From Arcicella aurantiaca (GTDB lineage: Bacteria > Bacteroidota > Bacteroidia > Cytophagales > Spirosomataceae), in assembly GCF_003148625.1 (NCBI RefSeq), contig NZ_QGGO01000014.1:62001-126000 (forward strand): a DNA stretch of 64,000 nt. The letters are read 5' to 3'. Under the pieces are notes generated by a model, which worked only from the letters and a program-made list of their open reading frames with translations, was not told the origin of the DNA and made no database searches. The position numbers were made by a program, and so were the translations under genes. Positions 55,299-64,000 of the stretch are shown piece after piece. The stretch's first letter is position 1. The number at the start of each line of letters is the position of its first letter.

Positions 55299-57311
55299 AT
55301 GAGATTTACCATAGCTCTTTTATTATTAATCATTTCCTTACAAACAACCGCTCAAAAAACCTTCTGGGCAAGCCGTGTTATTGCCTTTTCATCTGAATAT
55401 TCCGACGCAAATACCACCAAAGAAAACAAAGCCATTCAAGCATTAGGAAAGCCCAACAAACTTCCCCTTTTTGGGCAGAGTGTATGTGCGTGGCAACCCA
55501 TGACACAAGAAAGTCCATTGGAAGAATTCTTAATCGTTGGTTTTGATACCTTAATGCCAATCAAACAAGTGGCTATTGCAGAAAACTTTGGGCAAGGTTG
55601 TATCGTAAGAATTGAAGCTTTTGATGAATTTGATAATTTAAAAACACTTTGGGTCAATAAAAATATGCCAACCAATGAAGTTGGAAGAATGGCGAATCTC
55701 GTTTTATCTAAATTAACGCCGTTTAAAGTTCGAGGAATAAAAATTGTTCTAAATACAAATAGAGTAAAAGGTTGGAATCAAATTGACGCCATTGCCATTT
55801 CTCAGTCAGATGTACCCATCAAAGCGAGTATAAACTTAGCAAAAAATCTTCCTGCCGAAATTATTAAAGAAAATTTGGGTGAAAATGTGAACTCTGCCTA
55901 TCGTGAAATTGCCCCAGTGATTTCTCCAGATGGAAAAACCTTGTATTACACTCGCTGGAAACATCCCGAAAACTTAGGGACAGGAAAAAATCAAGACGTC
56001 TGGTTTTCAGAAATTCAAAAAGACGGAAAATGGGGATTAGCCAAGCCAATGGGCGAACCAATCAACAATACAGAACACAACGCCATTTGTGCCATTTCTC
56101 CCGACGGAAAAACCATTTTGCTCAATAACGTTTATTTGAGAGACGGCTCAATGGCAAAAGGTGTTTCCATGTCAACGAAAACGCCAACAGGTTGGGCATT
56201 TCCGAAGCCAATAAATATCAAAAACTTTAGAAATAAATCTGAATATGCAGAATATAGTTTTTCTCCTAATGGTCGAGTTTTGATTCTAACAGGTCAATTC
56301 GCTGAAACACAAGGAGGTAAAGATATTTATGTTTCATTTTTACAACCTGACGGCACTTGGGCAGAACCCAAAAATTTAGGAAAAAAAATCAACACTGCCG
56401 AAGAAGAAAGCACTCCATTTGTAGCCGCTGATGGCAAAACGCTTTATTTTTCCACAAAAGGTTTGAGTGGTTATGGCAACAATGATATTTTCTTGAGCAG
56501 AAGATTAGACGACACTTGGATGAATTGGTCAGAACCTGAAAATTTAGGTTCTGTCATTAATACACCTGAGTGGGACGGATATTTTTCAATCTCCGCCATT
56601 GGTGATTATGCCTTTTTTAGCTCACAAGAAAATGCTATTGGCGAAGAAGATATTTTTAAATTACGTGTTCCAGAATCAATTAAACCAAGTGCTGTTGTTC
56701 AAGTAACTGGTGGGGTTTATAACAAAGTAGATAACAAACCGATTTCTGCCAAAATTAATGTTCAATCATTGACTGATAAAGATACCGTTTGTGTTACTTA
56801 TGACCCTCTGACGGGAGATTATAAAATGATGCTTCCTTCTAAACAGAGCTACACGATTTCGGCATCAAAAAAGGGTTTTATGGCTGTTTCTGAACCTTTA
56901 GATTTTACAAAAGACAATAACTTTAAAGAAGTAAAAAAGAATATTTATTTACTTCCGATTGAAGCAGGACAGAAAATGACACTCAATAGTGTTTTCTTCG
57001 CTCAAAGTAAAGCCGAAATTTTAGACAATTCTTTTCCAGAATTAGATAGAATAATCAAAGTAATGGAAGAAAATCCAACAATGGAAATCATGTTGGAAGG
57101 ACACACTGATAATCAAGGAGATTGGAACGAAAACTTGCTATTATCAAAACAAAGAGTTGAAGAAGTGAAGAAATATTTAGCGGCAGGAGGAATAAATATA
57201 AAAAGAGTGCAAACTCAGGGATACGGCTCAACAAGACCAATTTCAAGTAATAATTCAGAAGAAAAAAGAAAATTAAATAGACGTGTAGAAGTAACAATTG
57301 TTAAGAATTAA
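55299..57311 (+). CDS. PD40-OmpA family outer membrane protein, copy 1
   Basis: 670 residues with a signal peptide (RFTIALLLLIISLQTTAQ). A beta-sandwich, galactose-binding-like domain ('FWASRVIAFSSEYSD...') occupies ~20-165. PD40/WD40-like beta-propeller repeats ('APVISPDGKTLYYTRWK', 'ISPDGKTILLNN', 'FSPNGRVLILTG', 'VAADGKTLYFSTKG') fill ~195-450. A carboxypeptidase-regulatory-like beta domain ('GGVYNKVDNKPISAKIN') comes next, and the C-terminal OmpA domain (~555-670, 'LNSVFFAQSKAEIL', 'EGHTDNQGDWNENLLLSKQRVEEVKKYL', 'NRRVEV') binds peptidoglycan. The next gene is a paralogue, 259 bp away. Such proteins often act in gliding or envelope complexes. Confidence 0.87.
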   Translation: MRFTIALLLLIISLQTTAQKTFWASRVIAFSSEYSDANTTKENKAIQALGKPNKLPLFGQSVCAWQPMTQESPLEEFLIVGFDTLMPIKQVAIAENFGQGCIVRIEAFDEFDNLKTLWVNKNMPTNEVGRMANLVLSKLTPFKVRGIKIVLNTNRVKGWNQIDAIAISQSDVPIKASINLAKNLPAEIIKENLGENVNSAYREIAPVISPDGKTLYYTRWKHPENLGTGKNQDVWFSEIQKDGKWGLAKPMGEPINNTEHNAICAISPDGKTILLNNVYLRDGSMAKGVSMSTKTPTGWAFPKPINIKNFRNKSEYAEYSFSPNGRVLILTGQFAETQGGKDIYVSFLQPDGTWAEPKNLGKKINTAEEESTPFVAADGKTLYFSTKGLSGYGNNDIFLSRRLDDTWMNWSEPENLGSVINTPEWDGYFSISAIGDYAFFSSQENAIGEEDIFKLRVPESIKPSAVVQVTGGVYNKVDNKPISAKINVQSLTDKDTVCVTYDPLTGDYKMMLPSKQSYTISASKKGFMAVSEPLDFTKDNNFKEVKKNIYLLPIEAGQKMTLNSVFFAQSKAEILDNSFPELDRIIKVMEENPTMEIMLEGHTDNQGDWNENLLLSKQRVEEVKKYLAAGGINIKRVQTQGYGSTRPISSNNSEEKRKLNRRVEVTIVKN

Positions 57312-57570: not shown

Positions 57571-59607
57571 ATGTTATCAATGTTCAAAAAATCCGCCGCC
57601 TTTTTGTTCTTCTTTCAGCTTATTATTTTCCCAACATTTTCCCAAAAAGTTTGTTGGGCGAGTAAAGTATTAGAATTTTCATCTGAAAGGGTCATTCCTT
57701 TTCAAACTACCGAATACAAAGCAATTCAAGCATTAGGAAAACCTAATGTTCTCCCCAATATCTCAGAAAGTACTGCCGCTTGGCAACCTTCACAACCCGA
57801 TAGTCCAAGTGCAGAATACATCACGGTTGCCTTTGATACGCTCATGCCTATCAGACAAGTTGCCGTTGCCGAAAACTTTGGTCAAGGTTGTATTGAAAAA
57901 ATCTTAGCAATAGACTCAAAAAATAATGTTTATACACTTTATCAAACTCCCGAAAATCAGATTAATGAGATAAAAGATAAAGGTAAAATGTTGAACGTCA
58001 TTCTCTCAGAAATGACTACTTACAGCATCAAAGCCATTAAATTAATCCTTAATACCGAAAAAATTAAAGGACCAAACCAAATTGATGCCATTGGGATTTC
58101 TGATTCTACTGAACCCATCAAAGCAGTTATTAGAGTAGCAGCCGATGCCCCAAAAGAAGTTTACCGAGAGAATTTAGGTAAAGGTGTAAATTCAAGACAT
58201 CAAGAATTTGCTCCAGTAATTTCAAGTGATGGTAAAACCCTTTTTTATACCCGTAATTATCTAAGTATGTTTGGTAAAGAAAAAGACCAAGATGTTTGGT
58301 TTAGCGTACAAGATAAAAATGGAAATTGGGTAAAATCAAAAAATATTGGTTATCCAATCAATAATGAAGATAAAAATGCCGTGTTTGCGGTTTCTGCCGA
58401 TGGAAGAGAAATCCTATTAATGAACAAATACAACAAAGATGGAAAATTATCTCCCGGAATTTCACGCTCATTTAGAACACGGGCAGGTTGGGCATATCCA
58501 GAAGAAATAAAGATTGACAATTACTATAATCAAAGTCCAAATGCTGAATATGCAATTTCACCTGATGGAAGAGTAATGGTAATGTCAATTCAACGAAAAA
58601 ATACAGTTGGAAAAAGAGACTTATATGTTTCTTTCAAAAAGGAAAACACCAATTGGTCTGAACCAATTAGTATGGGAAGACAAATAAATACGGTTGAACA
58701 TGAAGTAACGCCTTTTATTGCGGCAGATGGAAAAACGCTTTATTTTTCCACAAGAGGTTTCCCTGGTTATGGAGATAACGATATTTTTAAAACACAAAGA
58801 TTAGATGACACTTGGCAGTATTGGACAGAACCTGAAAACCTTGGTTCTGCCATAAATACACCAAATTGGGATGGATACTTCACGCTTCCAGCCTCTGGAG
58901 AGTATGCTTATATCTGCTCTATAAATGCAGCAAAAAAAGAAGATATTTATAAATTAGAATTACCTAAAACTGCAAAACCAGAGCCTGTGGCTATTATTTC
59001 AGGAGATATTTTAACGACTACGGACAAAAAGCCAGTTGAAGCCGTTTTGACGATGACTCCACAAAATGATAAATTAAAGCCCGAAGTAAAAAAATATGAC
59101 CCTGCAACGGGTTCATTTAGTTTTGTCGTGCCTTTGAAAGAAATTTACAATTTTGTTCCGTATGCAAAAGGATATTTAGCCATCAATGAAACGGTTGATT
59201 TGTCGAAAGAAATATCTTACCGAGAAATCAAAAAAGACTTTTATTTAATGCCTTTGGAAGTAGGAAATAAAGGAGTTTTGAACAGTTTTACCTTTGAACA
59301 AGGCGAATCACACCTACAAGCACCTGCCTTGAAAGATTTGGATAGAATAGTGCAAGCAATGAATGATTTTCCGACTTTGGAGATACTTTTTGAAGGACAT
59401 ACTGATAATCAGGGCGACTTCCAACTAAACCTAAAATTATCAGAAGAACGAGTAGAAGAAGTTAAAAACTACCTGATTTCTAAAGGGATAGCTTCCGAGA
59501 GGGTTACCACGAAAGGTTGGGGACAAACTCGCCCAATTGCCAGCAATGCTACCGAAGAACGCCGTCGTTTAAATCGTCGTGTAGAGTTTACAATTACGAA
59601 AAAATAG
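57571..59607 (+). CDS. PD40-OmpA family outer membrane protein, copy 2 (paralogue)
   Basis: A 678-residue paralogue of the preceding gene with the same domain order: signal peptide (SAAFLFFFQLIIFPTFSQ), N-terminal beta-sandwich ('VCWASKVLEFSSE'), PD40 propeller ('APVISSDGKTLFYTRNY', 'ISPDGRVMVMSI', 'IAADGKTLYFSTRG'), regulatory-like domain and OmpA C-terminal domain ('FEGHTDNQGDFQLNLKLSEERVEEVKNYL', 'RRLNRRVEFTI'). Identity is strongest in the propeller and OmpA parts. The pair probably arose by tandem duplication. The upstream 259-bp gap has CTAAATCC words but no gene. Confidence 0.87.
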   Translation: MLSMFKKSAAFLFFFQLIIFPTFSQKVCWASKVLEFSSERVIPFQTTEYKAIQALGKPNVLPNISESTAAWQPSQPDSPSAEYITVAFDTLMPIRQVAVAENFGQGCIEKILAIDSKNNVYTLYQTPENQINEIKDKGKMLNVILSEMTTYSIKAIKLILNTEKIKGPNQIDAIGISDSTEPIKAVIRVAADAPKEVYRENLGKGVNSRHQEFAPVISSDGKTLFYTRNYLSMFGKEKDQDVWFSVQDKNGNWVKSKNIGYPINNEDKNAVFAVSADGREILLMNKYNKDGKLSPGISRSFRTRAGWAYPEEIKIDNYYNQSPNAEYAISPDGRVMVMSIQRKNTVGKRDLYVSFKKENTNWSEPISMGRQINTVEHEVTPFIAADGKTLYFSTRGFPGYGDNDIFKTQRLDDTWQYWTEPENLGSAINTPNWDGYFTLPASGEYAYICSINAAKKEDIYKLELPKTAKPEPVAIISGDILTTTDKKPVEAVLTMTPQNDKLKPEVKKYDPATGSFSFVVPLKEIYNFVPYAKGYLAINETVDLSKEISYREIKKDFYLMPLEVGNKGVLNSFTFEQGESHLQAPALKDLDRIVQAMNDFPTLEILFEGHTDNQGDFQLNLKLSEERVEEVKNYLISKGIASERVTTKGWGQTRPIASNATEERRRLNRRVEFTITKK

Positions 59608-59728: not shown

Positions 59729-60553
59729 ATGATAACCTCAAAGAACAATACCCTCAATTCTTTTGCAGACTTAAAAAAGTTGCAAAAGACCTTACGCCTC
59801 AGAATTCTCGAAATGTATTTTACAGCCAATGCAGGTCATATTGGTTGTTCATTGTCATGTGTTGATTTAATGATTGGTTCTTTGTTATCTCATAAACAAG
59901 ATAATGAAGTTTTTCTACTCTCTAAAGGTCATGCTGCGGCAGCATTGTATGCTTGCTTAAATGAATCAGGAGAAATTTCAGACGAAGAATTAAAGACATT
60001 TTATAAAAACGGAACCGTACTTCCCGCTCACCCAGCTCCCAATAAAATTGCAGGTATTCCATTTGCAACAGGTTCATTAGGACATGGTTTGCCAATCGCA
60101 ACGGGAATTGCCCAAGCAAGCAAAATCCTTGAAAACGGCGAATACACCTACGTTTTAATGTCAGACGGTGAAACCAATGAAGGTACAACTTGGGAAGCCG
60201 CTCATTATGCGGTTGCTAAAGGTTTAGACAATCTTATCGTGATGGTTGACAAAAATGGCTTACAAGGATTTGGCAATACTGATGAAATTTTAGGCGTTTC
60301 TGCCGATAAAACAAAATGGGAAGCAATCGGCTTTGATGTTGTAGAATGTGACGGACATAATATCGAAGAAATTTACAATCAAATTGACTTGTTCAAAGCC
60401 AAAAAGAACGGTATTCCAAAATTATTAATTGCCAATACGACCAAAGGAAAAGGCGTTTCGTACATGGAAAATCGTATGGAATGGCATTACTTACCCATGA
60501 AACCAGAGCAGTTTGAAATTGCGATGAATGACGTAAATAACAATTACGTTTAG
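59729..60553 (+). CDS. Transketolase-like subunit, N-terminal (ThDP pyrophosphate-binding) half
   Basis: A 274-residue protein covering the PP domain of a transketolase. 'HIGCSLSCVDLMIG', 'FLLSKGHAAAALYACL', 'GSLGHGLPIATGIAQA' and 'MSDGETNEGTTWEAAHYAVAKGLDNLIVMVDKNGLQ' hold the ThDP/Mg2+ motif (GDG...N, here SDGE...N) and the conserved His residues. The Pyr domain half is a separate gene at 62796, with an epimerase-GT2 gene between them. Split transketolases of this size occur in cell-surface sugar gene sets as well as in core metabolism. Confidence 0.87.
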   Translation: MITSKNNTLNSFADLKKLQKTLRLRILEMYFTANAGHIGCSLSCVDLMIGSLLSHKQDNEVFLLSKGHAAAALYACLNESGEISDEELKTFYKNGTVLPAHPAPNKIAGIPFATGSLGHGLPIATGIAQASKILENGEYTYVLMSDGETNEGTTWEAAHYAVAKGLDNLIVMVDKNGLQGFGNTDEILGVSADKTKWEAIGFDVVECDGHNIEEIYNQIDLFKAKKNGIPKLLIANTTKGKGVSYMENRMEWHYLPMKPEQFEIAMNDVNNNYV

Positions 60554-60716
60554 CGTAATTAGGGGTTTGGATTTAGGCATTATCATTTTGCAGCCTAATC
60601 AATTGACTACAAGACTTTTATAAATCAAGTTTGTGTCGATTATTTAAACCAAACCACTTATAGAGTTCAAAATCAAATTGCCCAAAATCACGTTTTCAAA
60701 TCTTCAATAAATAAAA

Positions 60717-62702
60717 ATGACCGATTCGGTAAAAGAAAAAATCCTATCTCTCAAAGGTCCAATCTTCGTTTACGGAGCAAGCGGTTTTATAGGTGCTAAT
60801 CTTTTTAAAGATATTTTTAGTGTACGCAAAGATTGTTACGCACTTACGCATGATGCTCAAAAAGCATGGCGATTGAAATTACTTGATATTCCTGCTGCCA
60901 ATATTGTTCACTGTGATATTGTGTCTAATTATTCGGTTCAAGAGGTTTTTAATACTTATAAACCTAAAACCATTTTTAATTTAGCGGCTTATGGTGCGTA
61001 TTCAAAGCAAAAAAATATAACACTTACCTACGAAACTAACGTAATTGGTACGGTAAATCTTTTAGAAAATCTTGCTTCCGACATGGTGTACATCCACGCA
61101 GGAAGTAGCTCTGAATATGGTTTTAACTGTACTTCTCCAAAAGAAACTGATACGCTTGAACCGAATAGTCACTATTCAGTTTCAAAAGTTTCGGCGGCTT
61201 ACATGATTCAGTTTTACGCAAAAGTTCATGAGAAAAATGCTGTAAATCTTCGTCTTTATTCCATTTATGGCGATTGGGAAGAACCTGACAGATTAATTCC
61301 AAAATTGATTGAAAGCGTAAGACAACACAAACTACCCAATTTTGTTTCTCCTGAAATTAGTCGTGACTTTGTTTATATGTCCGATTGTGTAGAGGCTTTC
61401 ATTGATTCAGCTTTGAAAATGTCTCCCGAAATCAGAGGGAAATCTTATAACATCGCAAGCGGTGTAAAAACAACCATTGGCGATTTAGTAGAAGTTTGTC
61501 GTAAAGAATTTGGCATTAAAGAAGAGCCTTCGTGGGGAAGTATGCAAAACCGTTCTTGGGATTTAGCAGAATGGTTCGGTGACCCAACTGAAGCTAATAA
61601 AGATTTGGGATGGAAAGCAAAAACACCACTAAATCAAGGACTTAGACAATATTTTGATTGGCAAGAAGGTATCCAATACGAAGGAAAATTATTACCTGCA
61701 TTCCAAAATCCATATCTCAATCCTGTAATTACCGCAATTATTGCTTGTTATAGAGATGCCGAAGCAATTCCGTTTATGTATGAACGTTTAGTCAAGACAT
61801 TTAACGAAATGAAAGTTCGCTATGAAATTATTTTCGTAAACGACTGCTCACCAGATAATACAGAAGAAGTTTTAGAAGCCATTTGTAATAAAGACCCAAA
61901 TGTTATTGGAATTACCCATTCAAGAAATTTTGGTTCACAAGCAGGATTCTTGTCAGGAATGGAAATTTCAACGGGAGATGCCGTCGTTTTAATGGACGGA
62001 GATTTACAAGACCCGCCAGAAATTATGCCTAAGTTTTATGAAAAATGGACGCAAGGTTATGAAGTAACTTACGGAGTTAGGGTTCAACGTGAAATGCCCG
62101 CTTGGTTACATTTTTTCTACAAGACATTTTATAAAATCTTCAAGAATATGTCGTACATCAACATACCAAAAGATGCAGGCGATTTCTCGATGATTGACCG
62201 TAAAGTAGTGAAAGAGTTGATTAATTTACCAGAAACTGAACAGTTTTTACGTGGATTAAGAGCTTGGGTTGGTTTCAAACAAACTGGAGTAGATTATGTT
62301 CGTCCAGAAAGAATGTTTGGAGTTTCTACCAACAACTGGCGTAAAAATATTTGGTGGGCTAAAAAAGCAATATTCTCATTTAGCTTTGTCCCTTTAGAAA
62401 TCATGTCATACACAGGTTTCTTTATGACATTAGCGTCAATTTTAGGAATAATTTGGCAAGTTTTAGCAAAATATGTTTTCTATCCAGAAACTCCATCAGG
62501 CTTATCAACAGTTATTATTTTGGTTATGTTTTTCGGAGGAATTAATATGTTAGGAATCAGTTTCTTAGGAGAATATATCGCTAAGATTTTTGAGGAAACG
62601 AAAAAACGTCCAAAATTCATTAGAACGAAAGTGAGAAAAGGCGTTAAACGTTACAACACTTCAGAAGAAATTAAAAGATTAGTAGAAGAACAGAGAAAAT
62701 AA
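60717..62702 (+). CDS. Fusion of a nucleotide-sugar epimerase/dehydratase and a polyprenyl-phosphate GT2 glycosyltransferase
   Basis: 661 residues in two domains. Residues ~15-320 are an extended SDR: 'VYGASGFIGANLF' (NAD loop), 'NLAAYGAYSKQ', catalytic 'YSVSKVSAAYM', and 'YSIYGDWEEPDRL'. Residues ~335-661 are a GT2 enzyme of the DPM/GtrB/ArnC type: 'VITAIIACYRDAEAIPF', 'NDCSPDNTEEVL', 'MDGDLQDPPE' (metal/nucleotide Asp), 'DFSMIDRKVV', 'RGLRAWVGFKQ' and two C-terminal membrane helices (~555-620). The arrangement would let one protein make a nucleotide sugar and move it onto a polyprenyl phosphate. It lies between the two transketolase halves. The fusion appears natural, with no frameshift. 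Confidence 0.88.
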   Translation: MTDSVKEKILSLKGPIFVYGASGFIGANLFKDIFSVRKDCYALTHDAQKAWRLKLLDIPAANIVHCDIVSNYSVQEVFNTYKPKTIFNLAAYGAYSKQKNITLTYETNVIGTVNLLENLASDMVYIHAGSSSEYGFNCTSPKETDTLEPNSHYSVSKVSAAYMIQFYAKVHEKNAVNLRLYSIYGDWEEPDRLIPKLIESVRQHKLPNFVSPEISRDFVYMSDCVEAFIDSALKMSPEIRGKSYNIASGVKTTIGDLVEVCRKEFGIKEEPSWGSMQNRSWDLAEWFGDPTEANKDLGWKAKTPLNQGLRQYFDWQEGIQYEGKLLPAFQNPYLNPVITAIIACYRDAEAIPFMYERLVKTFNEMKVRYEIIFVNDCSPDNTEEVLEAICNKDPNVIGITHSRNFGSQAGFLSGMEISTGDAVVLMDGDLQDPPEIMPKFYEKWTQGYEVTYGVRVQREMPAWLHFFYKTFYKIFKNMSYINIPKDAGDFSMIDRKVVKELINLPETEQFLRGLRAWVGFKQTGVDYVRPERMFGVSTNNWRKNIWWAKKAIFSFSFVPLEIMSYTGFFMTLASILGIIWQVLAKYVFYPETPSGLSTVIILVMFFGGINMLGISFLGEYIAKIFEETKKRPKFIRTKVRKGVKRYNTSEEIKRLVEEQRK

Positions 62703-62795
62703 ATGAAGTAGTAAGTTGTATGTCGAAAGTCACAAGAAAAATGAAATGGTTGATTTACTTATGACTTTTGACTTATAGACTTACCTCTAAAATAT

Positions 62796-63704
62796 ATGAG
62801 AAGAGAATTTTCAGATGCCATCGAAAAAATTGCACTTGCAGACGAGAAAGTCGTTTTTATTACGGGCGATTTAGGCTACAACGCACTCGAAAACTTACAA
62901 GAAAAGTTAGGAAATCGCTTTATTAATGCAGGCGTTGCCGAACAAAACATGGTAGGTTTAGCCGCAGGAATGGCATACAAAGGATTTAAAGTTTTTTGTT
63001 ATTCAATTGCTCCATTCATCGTTTACCGTTGTTGGGAACAATTCAGAAATGACGTTTGCTTGCATAATTTGCCTGTTTTCTTGGTTGGAAATGGAGGTGG
63101 CTATGGCTACGGGATTATGGGAAGTTCGCACCATGCCATTGAAGATATTGCAGGTTTGAGTAGTCTTCAAAACGTAAAATGTTGGGTTCCTGCCTTTGCA
63201 GATGATGTAGAACCATTCGTAAATCAAATAGTTGCAGATGGTCGCCCTGCTTATTTACGTTTAGGAGCAGGAAAGCAAACCCCTGCCCATGAAGGCAACT
63301 TTGGAAGTTTGAAAATGGTGGTAAAATCTGACGAAGCGAAAGGAACAATCGTTGCTTTAGGACCCGTTGCTAATAATGTGGTAGCAGTTTTGCAACAAGA
63401 AGAATTTGCCAATAAATTTAATCTTTTAACTGCCCAAAATGTTCCTTTGACTATTAATAATGAAGGCTTGTCTTTATTGCAAAACACTGAAAATCTATTA
63501 GTTATCGAAGAACACGTTAGTATTGGCGGATTAGCACAACAACTTTCAGTGCAATTAATGGAGAATGGTATTACCTTCAAAAAATTCATTAGTCTTAGAG
63601 CTGAGGGTTATCCAGATGGGACTTATGGCGACCAAAATTTTCATCAAACTCAATCTGGTTTAGATGCAAAAAATATCGCTGATAAATTAAGACTTTTCGT
63701 TTAA
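62796..63704 (+). CDS. Transketolase-like subunit, C-terminal (Pyr) half
   Basis: 302 residues covering the pyrimidine-binding and C-terminal domains. 'ITGDLGYNALE' opens the domain and 'FINAGVAEQNMVGLAAGMA' contains the catalytic Glu of transketolases; 'APFIVYRCWEQFRND' is another conserved part, and 'LVIEEHVSIGGLAQQL' begins the C-terminal domain. It complements the gene at 59729. A repeat element starts directly after the stop (0 nt). Confidence 0.87.
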   Translation: MRREFSDAIEKIALADEKVVFITGDLGYNALENLQEKLGNRFINAGVAEQNMVGLAAGMAYKGFKVFCYSIAPFIVYRCWEQFRNDVCLHNLPVFLVGNGGGYGYGIMGSSHHAIEDIAGLSSLQNVKCWVPAFADDVEPFVNQIVADGRPAYLRLGAGKQTPAHEGNFGSLKMVVKSDEAKGTIVALGPVANNVVAVLQQEEFANKFNLLTAQNVPLTINNEGLSLLQNTENLLVIEEHVSIGGLAQQLSVQLMENGITFKKFISLRAEGYPDGTYGDQNFHQTQSGLDAKNIADKLRLFV

Positions 63705-63780: not shown

Positions 63781-64000
63781 TTGAAGAATATTTTACAAAA
63801 AAATGCGATTTGGGGCATCATCATCTTTTTTCCTGTTGCTCTTTATTTTTACTTTCTTTCGGAATATGCTATCAATATTCCGAAATGGGATGACCATGCA
63901 CTGAAAGCATTTATTGTAGAATTTCAAAATGCTAATGGATTTGCAGCCAAAATACAGGCAATCTTTAAACAGCATAACGAACATCGCATCGCTTTTGACC
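63781..64000 (+). CDS. Putative membrane protein, N-terminal part (cut by window end)
   Basis: An open frame from TTG at 63781 runs to the window end (73 residues visible). It begins 'LKNILQKNAIWGIIIFFPVALYF', a good first membrane helix, followed by 'PKWDDHALKAFIVEF' and 'IFKQHNEHRIAFD', a hydrophilic loop as seen in multi-helix glycosyltransferase- or flippase-like proteins of surface glycan loci. The frame is open further upstream through the repeat but has no ATG, so the TTG start is tentative. No family is assigned. Confidence 0.5.
   Translation, partial: MKNILQKNAIWGIIIFFPVALYFYFLSEYAINIPKWDDHALKAFIVEFQNANGFAAKIQAIFKQHNEHRIAFD

Follow-up and report, generated by a model that had tools for sequence, protein, structure and literature searches.

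Why should the two halves of a split transketolase flank a 661-residue protein in which a short-chain dehydrogenase/reductase (SDR) is fused to a family 2 glycosyltransferase (GT2)? This arrangement is found in a 64,000-nucleotide stretch of the Arcicella aurantiaca genome, here called the window, which covers positions 62001-126000 of contig NZ_QGGO01000014.1 (C14) in a genome of 5.93 Mb. The original prediction, made from the DNA letters alone, described the thiamine diphosphate (ThDP)-binding half (TKn), the fusion and the pyrimidine-binding half (TKc), and this was borne out: coordinates and Pfam domains agree, and all three open reading frames (ORFs) are on the plus strand. The gene content of this three-gene cassette, its co-conservation, the intact catalytic residues and the altered acceptor site are established. 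The probable role of the transketolase pair and the fusion is to produce an unusual sugar and link it to a membrane lipid, from which it would serve the cell surface.

The first question is whether the three genes belong together. Relatives were surveyed in 59 genomes including that of the window, 37 from the window's family and 22 from another family in the order. A full-length fusion is present in 20 of the 59, with 19 in the window's family and one in the other; one more genome of the window's family has a partial fusion at a contig end. Phylum-wide, at E 1e-110, the fusion was found in one of 148 evenly drawn genomes, namely the window's own, and outside the window's family its occurrence is patchy. 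Synteny was compared for 18 loci, the window and 17 relatives (G010, G024 and G032 were left out). TKn, fusion and TKc follow each other on one strand in 15 of these, or 14 of 17 without the window, so the order is not due to chance; some of these relatives carry an extra small or methyltransferase-like ORF between the genes. Two exceptions, L041 and L057, are cut short by contig ends; the transketolase pair missing from L057 was located on a separate contig of that genome, at its end. In L049, on a short contig, TKn and the fusion are present and TKc is absent.

A wider scan covered the best 80 of 581 relatives of the fusion, each matched over most of the query. The record titles of these loci name Bacteroidota, cyanobacteria (Nostoc punctiforme NIES-2108), proteobacteria (Azorhizobium, Caenimonas), Planctomycetota, Myxococcales, Bdellovibrio and others, many being metagenome bins of which the labels may be wrong. 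Both transketolase halves accompany the fusion in 71 of the 80 loci and one half does so in six, at truncated contig ends; neither half is present in L086, L111 and L112, the contig of L111 being truncated. Distances between fusions and between transketolases are strongly correlated (r 0.908, n=62 loci, 0 of 999 permutations), also outside the window's lineage (r 0.74, n=39, 0 of 999). In a transketolase tree the 63 cassette pairs that passed length filters form one clade with modest support (0.671), the deeper branches being weakly supported.

The original prediction spoke of an interrupted transketolase and proposed a search for the same gene order in other genomes, naming its absence from relatives as evidence to the contrary. 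Besides the 14 relatives, the order TKn-fusion-TKc recurs in 23 of the 80 loci (L058-L077 except L075, plus L088, L092, L097 and L104). In the window the fusion indeed stands between the halves, but elsewhere these usually adjoin, with the fusion after them: TKn-TKc-fusion occurs in 46 loci (47 with L099, assigned by coordinates), and L094 has an inverted pair upstream of the fusion. The emphasis on interruption is therefore misplaced, and what was seen is a gene order peculiar to the lineage rather than a damaged gene. The titles of the 23 loci are Arcicella, Larkinella, Dyadobacter, Runella, Spirosoma, Siphonobacter, Emticicia and kin, which we take to form one GTDB family; in the NCBI taxonomy three of these genera that were looked up fall in different families of Cytophagales. 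The exception by title is L071, labelled Flavobacterium sp. SUN052, which has the window-lineage order and 74% identity; the name may be wrong. Among the 80 loci the order is confined to the window's lineage. The most economical account has adjacent halves as the ancestral state and a later placement of the fusion gene between them in this lineage.

Is the pair a functional transketolase, and if so, of what kind? The residue comparison (E. coli numbering) covered the window together with 72 TKc and 66 TKn sequences from other cassette loci. We assume the usual roles for the ThDP and catalytic residues and for H461, D469 and R520 as substrate contacts. All eight ThDP and catalytic residues (H26, H66, H100, E160, N185, H261, E411 and H473) are retained in the window and are invariant across the cassettes apart from gaps. 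The acceptor side is rebuilt. The window has Gly, Met and Ala at positions 461, 469 and 520, and its TKc signature there is NGGGYGYGIMGSSHH. H461 is replaced by Gly in 72 of 73 cassette TKc sequences (one gap) and D469 by Met in 70 of 73; R520 varies (Arg in 14), and R358 is retained in 70 of 73. His, Asp and Arg are retained at 461, 469 and 520 in E. coli TktA and in a second split pair of the window genome, on contig C11. The three residues are also kept in 18 further halves, which were grouped as housekeeping-type by this very motif and so serve as illustration rather than as an independent control; this comparison of housekeeping and sister residues ignored mis-assigned ORFs of L145, L172, L176, L178, L181 and L186. 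The best solved sequence relative is the split transketolase of Carboxydothermus hydrogenoformans (6yaj, 6yak; 1e-54 for TKn and 1.6e-22 for TKc), where the acceptor motif reads THAGLTVGEDG as against NGGGYGYGIMG in the window. E. coli S385 was dropped as an acceptor-site argument because two alignments placed it differently. Judged by these residues, the acceptor specificity of the cassette enzymes has changed, although they do not by themselves reveal what the new acceptor is; loss of H461, D469 and R520 lowers the claim to a pentose-phosphate transketolase, not the claim to a transketolase.

The intact ThDP site would suit an ordinary transketolase that stands in a glycan region by chance, but this can hardly be the case and is largely refuted. 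The window genome has the canonical pair on C11 and a third split pair on C6, so that the cassette pair is not the housekeeping enzyme; the lack of a second core transketolase, which had been put forward as evidence against a special role, was thus not observed. Moreover, a full fusion occurs in just 20 of the 59 genomes. The C6 pair (L039, 9554-11382) lies by a ribose-type ABC transporter, an isomerase-like gene and other sugar-use genes, as judged by eye.

The SDR half of the fusion has the features of an extended SDR: the GxxGFxG motif (GASGFIG), S130 and the YxxxK pair Y153 and K157, together with GSSSEYG. The 49 sequences compared all have S131, S132, E133, Y134, Y153 and K157. The structural model (predicted local distance difference test score, pLDDT, 94.9) resembles UDP-hexose 4-epimerases, dehydratases and reductases at Z 34-37 with no clear winner, and assignment of a function from the fold was left at this tie. 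For 4,6-dehydratases acting on nucleoside diphosphate-glucose we assume an Asp-Glu pair after the catalytic Thr (TDE motif); the window SDR has SSSEY at this place. Since the Asp/Glu pair is missing, a role as ketoreductase or epimerase appears likelier than one as 4,6-dehydratase.

For the GT2 half, a DPM/ArnC-type enzyme had been proposed. This needs correcting in one respect: the match to sll0501 (1.7e-62 over residues 338-635), the GtrB structure, is better than that to ArnC (1.9e-31). NCBIfam PgfS is also matched, below its cut-off. The metal motif is DGD (DxD), residues D427, D429 and D489 are invariant in 20 of 20 sequences, and two hydrophobic segments lie near the C-terminus.

The partial membrane protein after TKc had been suggested as the next enzyme, with a check of the sequence beyond position 64000 for glycan genes. 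Such genes are present. The 553-residue product of the gene starting at 63781 reaches no Pfam cut-off, and its model (pLDDT 85) best matches the oligosaccharyltransferase STT3 (Z 16.7, 324 residues aligned, root-mean-square deviation 4.6), with ArnT bound to undecaprenyl phosphate close behind (Z 16.0, 366 residues, 6.7). Nearly all of the top 38 structural matches belong to the GT-C superfamily, and the gene running off the window is, by its predicted structure, a GT-C-fold glycosyltransferase. It adjoins TKc in 14 of the 16 loci with TKc among the 18 compared; L046 has other genes there and the contig of L052 ends. L064 and L154 (6904-8634) each have an additional GT-C gene, divergent from the first, between the fusion and TKc.

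Coordinates (window numbering) of the cassette genes, the domains of the fusion and the following gene
Feature	Position	Strand	Remarks
TKn, ThDP-binding half of split transketolase	59729..60553	+	274 aa; Pfam Transketolase_N 1.5e-31
SDR-GT2 fusion, single ORF	60717..62702	+	661 aa; Epimerase + Glycos_transf_2
Fusion N-terminal extended-SDR domain (nucleotide-sugar type), aa 1-325	60717..61691	+	Pfam Epimerase 9.5e-37, aa 16-247
Fusion C-terminal GtrB-type GT2 domain, aa 335-661	61719..62702	+	Pfam Glycos_transf_2 3e-27, aa 340-501
TKc, pyrimidine-binding and C-terminal half of split transketolase	62796..63704	+	302 aa; Transket_pyr 5.6e-27
GT-C-fold glycosyltransferase gene (by model), start	63781..64000	+	553 aa with TTG start; ends past window

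In view of the above, a reaction sequence can be considered that we favour tentatively, with a confidence a little below even. In it the three genes would form the core of a surface-glycan cassette for a C2-modified sugar carried on polyprenyl phosphate. The split transketolase would move a two-carbon ketol unit to the carbonyl of an activated keto-sugar, much as YerE does in making yersiniose, where pyruvate supplies the two carbons. Before or after this branching, the SDR may oxidise, reduce or epimerise the sugar. The fused GtrB-type domain would then move the sugar from its nucleotide to polyprenyl phosphate, a step suggested by strong homology. After flipping, the predicted GT-C enzyme would transfer the sugar to a glycan or other acceptor outside. 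The substrates, direction and product of this chemistry are what we infer. A more specific and more doubtful version is possible, in which a glycoloyl unit is added to an activated keto-hexose and the SDR converts the adduct to a dihydroxyethyl-branched octose, a sugar not described to date, which the same fusion would load on polyprenyl phosphate, in Bacteroidota, cyanobacteria and proteobacteria alike.

Clues to the sugar come from sister loci that hold related transketolase pairs. A search for such pairs matched 95 of 345 genomes; flanks were taken from seven of the best matches and L153, so the following is not an unbiased rate. In L153 (G235, family f9) the genes encode RfbF, RfbG and RfbH, all above NCBIfam equivalog cut-offs, followed by an SDR, an FkbM methyltransferase, TKn, TKc, a GtrB-type GT2 and a membrane protein. 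L195 has RfbF-RfbG-RfbH, a metallo-hydrolase-like ORF, TKn, TKc, an SDR, GtrA, a GtrB-type GT2 and a membrane protein. The near-identical L198 and L199 have RfbF-RfbG-RfbH, a metallo-hydrolase-like ORF and TKn-TKc, with an SDR further on (in L198, RfbF and RfbH were assigned by hidden Markov models and RfbG by BLAST). L195, L198 and L199 are from one genus and represent two distinct transketolase types. The metallo-hydrolase-like ORF between RfbH and TKn, so named by eye, has 248 residues (L195 7190-7936, L198 5144-5890, L199 5057-5803). Among the glycan-linked sister transketolases Gly461 is present in six of six, with Leu or Ser at 469. L197 has its pair by aminotransferase-like genes (by eye or weak BLAST), and L200, one of the flank-sampled matches, has the canonical acceptor motif.

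The window genome itself has a yersiniose-like cluster on contig C24 (L202, 6206-12124), with RfbF, RfbG, an SDR, a 575-residue YerE-like ThDP enzyme of the acetolactate synthase type, and RfbH. The product of RfbH is CDP-3,6-dideoxy-4-keto-glucose. A passage in PMC12247030 gives this compound as the substrate of YerE. No YerE-like enzyme of the acetolactate synthase type was noticed in the RfbH-linked sister loci, so by analogy the transketolase pair may take the place of YerE there. The original suggestion of a sugar made by the transketolase and then loaded by the fusion finds partial support, at the level of genes, in the association of the genes and in the sister loci.

Several observations weigh against two-carbon branching of an activated keto-sugar. 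The RfbH-linked sisters come from two families only and were chosen from the best matches, and their unfused SDRs are 20-31% identical to the fusion SDR over the matched parts. RfbF-RfbG-RfbH are not found beside the window cassette. In the same 59 genomes, RfbH (at E 1e-100) is present in four, including two of the 20 with a full fusion, and RfbG in nine, including three of these 20; the cassette is therefore independent of CDP-4-keto-3,6-dideoxyglucose. Both were rejected as substrate markers, since their distribution does not follow the cassette. RmlB was also rejected: it is near universal (55 of 59 genomes) and hence uninformative, and it was not found in G023 (99% complete), which has a full fusion, or in G032 (66% complete), which has the partial one. 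The C6 transketolase, from its sugar-use locus, has Ser at 461 and Leu at 469, so the rebuilt site is not unique, and the change indicates altered specificity rather than a nucleotide-sugar acceptor. In addition, transketolases proposed to act on ketone acceptors are, according to a passage in PMC12247030, uncharacterised in vitro.

Two sister pairs, in L196 (9285-11029) and L201 (8030-9837), lie by GmhA-like and heptose-kinase-like genes and SDRs, as identified by eye. They point to a role of this transketolase group in several pathways for unusual sugars, and at these heptose-type loci an extension of the sugar chain is as plausible as branching. For the cassette in general, the transketolase could in the same way lengthen or shorten a sugar chain, giving for instance a heptulose, an octulose or another ketose, with activation by other enzymes and the SDR and GT2 acting later, and with no branching; ordinary transketolases make sedoheptulose 7-phosphate. 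We consider this unlikely, as a nucleotidyltransferase-like ORF was flagged in only one of the 80 loci (L085, by a motif scan that did not include sugar kinases), and the presumed substrate contacts H461 and D469 are lost.

The fusions of L086 and L112 have 3.2 kb and 1.5 kb of upstream sequence, respectively, and no transketolase on their contigs; stand-alone use of the fusion is possible there. These two loci also fit a fusion that epimerises and loads a common hexose, with the transketolase serving another step or a pathway that shares the cluster by chance, as does the presence of UDP-hexose 4-epimerases among the best structural matches of the SDR, where they are tied with many others. 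That reading is distinctly improbable for the cassette as a whole, because 77 of the 80 loci, in distant phyla, have one or both transketolase halves with the fusion, and the two co-diverge.

The sharing of one polypeptide by SDR and GT2 raises yet another order of events, in which the GT2 first makes polyprenyl-phosphate-hexose, with the SDR and transketolase acting afterwards, at the cytoplasmic face, on the sugar already bound to lipid. A precedent may be the SDR ORF13, which in a passage by Kelly et al. is expected to epimerise undecaprenyl-phosphate-ribose after loading (PMC11127046). Loading first is nevertheless quite unlikely for the cassette, given that the nucleotide-sugar genes of the sister loci would supply the keto-sugar in advance of loading and that the SDR fold matches nucleotide-sugar enzymes.

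The cassette has parallels in known systems. The yersiniose pathway (RfbF-RfbG-RfbH with YerE and reduction of the branch) likewise places a ThDP-dependent two-carbon addition in a glycan cluster, and the related pairs of L153, L195, L198 and L199 lie directly downstream of RfbF-RfbG-RfbH. However, YerE is described as a single pyruvate-using flavoprotein of the decarboxylase class (PMC12247030, PMC4753412), whereas the cassette has a split transketolase. A split transketolase with an oxidoreductase, and a proposed hydroxyacetyl addition to a keto-sugar, is reported for the miharamycin and amipurimycin clusters in a passage of PMC12247030. Compared by description, those are antibiotic clusters, whereas the cassette partner is a polyprenyl-phosphate-type glycosyltransferase. 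The three-component GtrA-GtrB-GT-C systems of periplasmic glycosylation have a GtrB-type GT2 and a GT-C-fold enzyme in common with the cassette, but not the fused SDR or the added transketolase. The wps-2 exopolysaccharide cluster of Actinoplanes missouriensis also has a split transketolase (AMIS_56710/56720), but the part of PMC13390465 that describes it presents a Wzx/Wzy type with aminotransferases and does not mention an SDR-GT2 fusion. No description of the cassette was recognised among the top-ranked matches to several queries of the open-licence PubMed Central literature. The cassette is real and widespread, probably serves an unusual lipid-linked sugar, and is undescribed in the open-licence literature searched.

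The surroundings of the cassette vary. Two tandem PD40/OmpA proteins are encoded directly upstream of TKn in the window (55299-57311 and 57571-59607), and a family of genes for proteins of about 684 residues (cluster 8), alike by eye, lies near the PD40/OmpA position in window-lineage loci (19 of the 80). Another family, of about 618 residues, occurs upstream of TKn in 20 of the 80 loci; the L048 gene at that place matches PMT_2. Many cassettes, chiefly those beyond the window's lineage, have class I methyltransferases as neighbours; three clusters of these, occurring in 22, 19 and 14 loci, were assigned from one scanned member each. GtrA genes stand beside the cassettes of L100, L110, L113 and L119, as in sister L195; at the window locus (L038) none was recognised by eye, in a look that covered ORFs of at least 100 residues at this locus. 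The L085 cassette follows rmlA, an RmlC-like ORF (by eye) and rmlB.

If the proposed chemistry is true, the cassette would represent a widespread route to branched sugars in which a transketolase makes the C–C bond on a ketone, a reaction that in a passage of PMC12247030 is proposed for some antibiotic clusters and is uncharacterised in vitro there. The compact set of three genes is a good test system for it. The signature NGGGYxYG[IV]MG may help to recognise such enzymes in genome data and set them apart from housekeeping transketolases.

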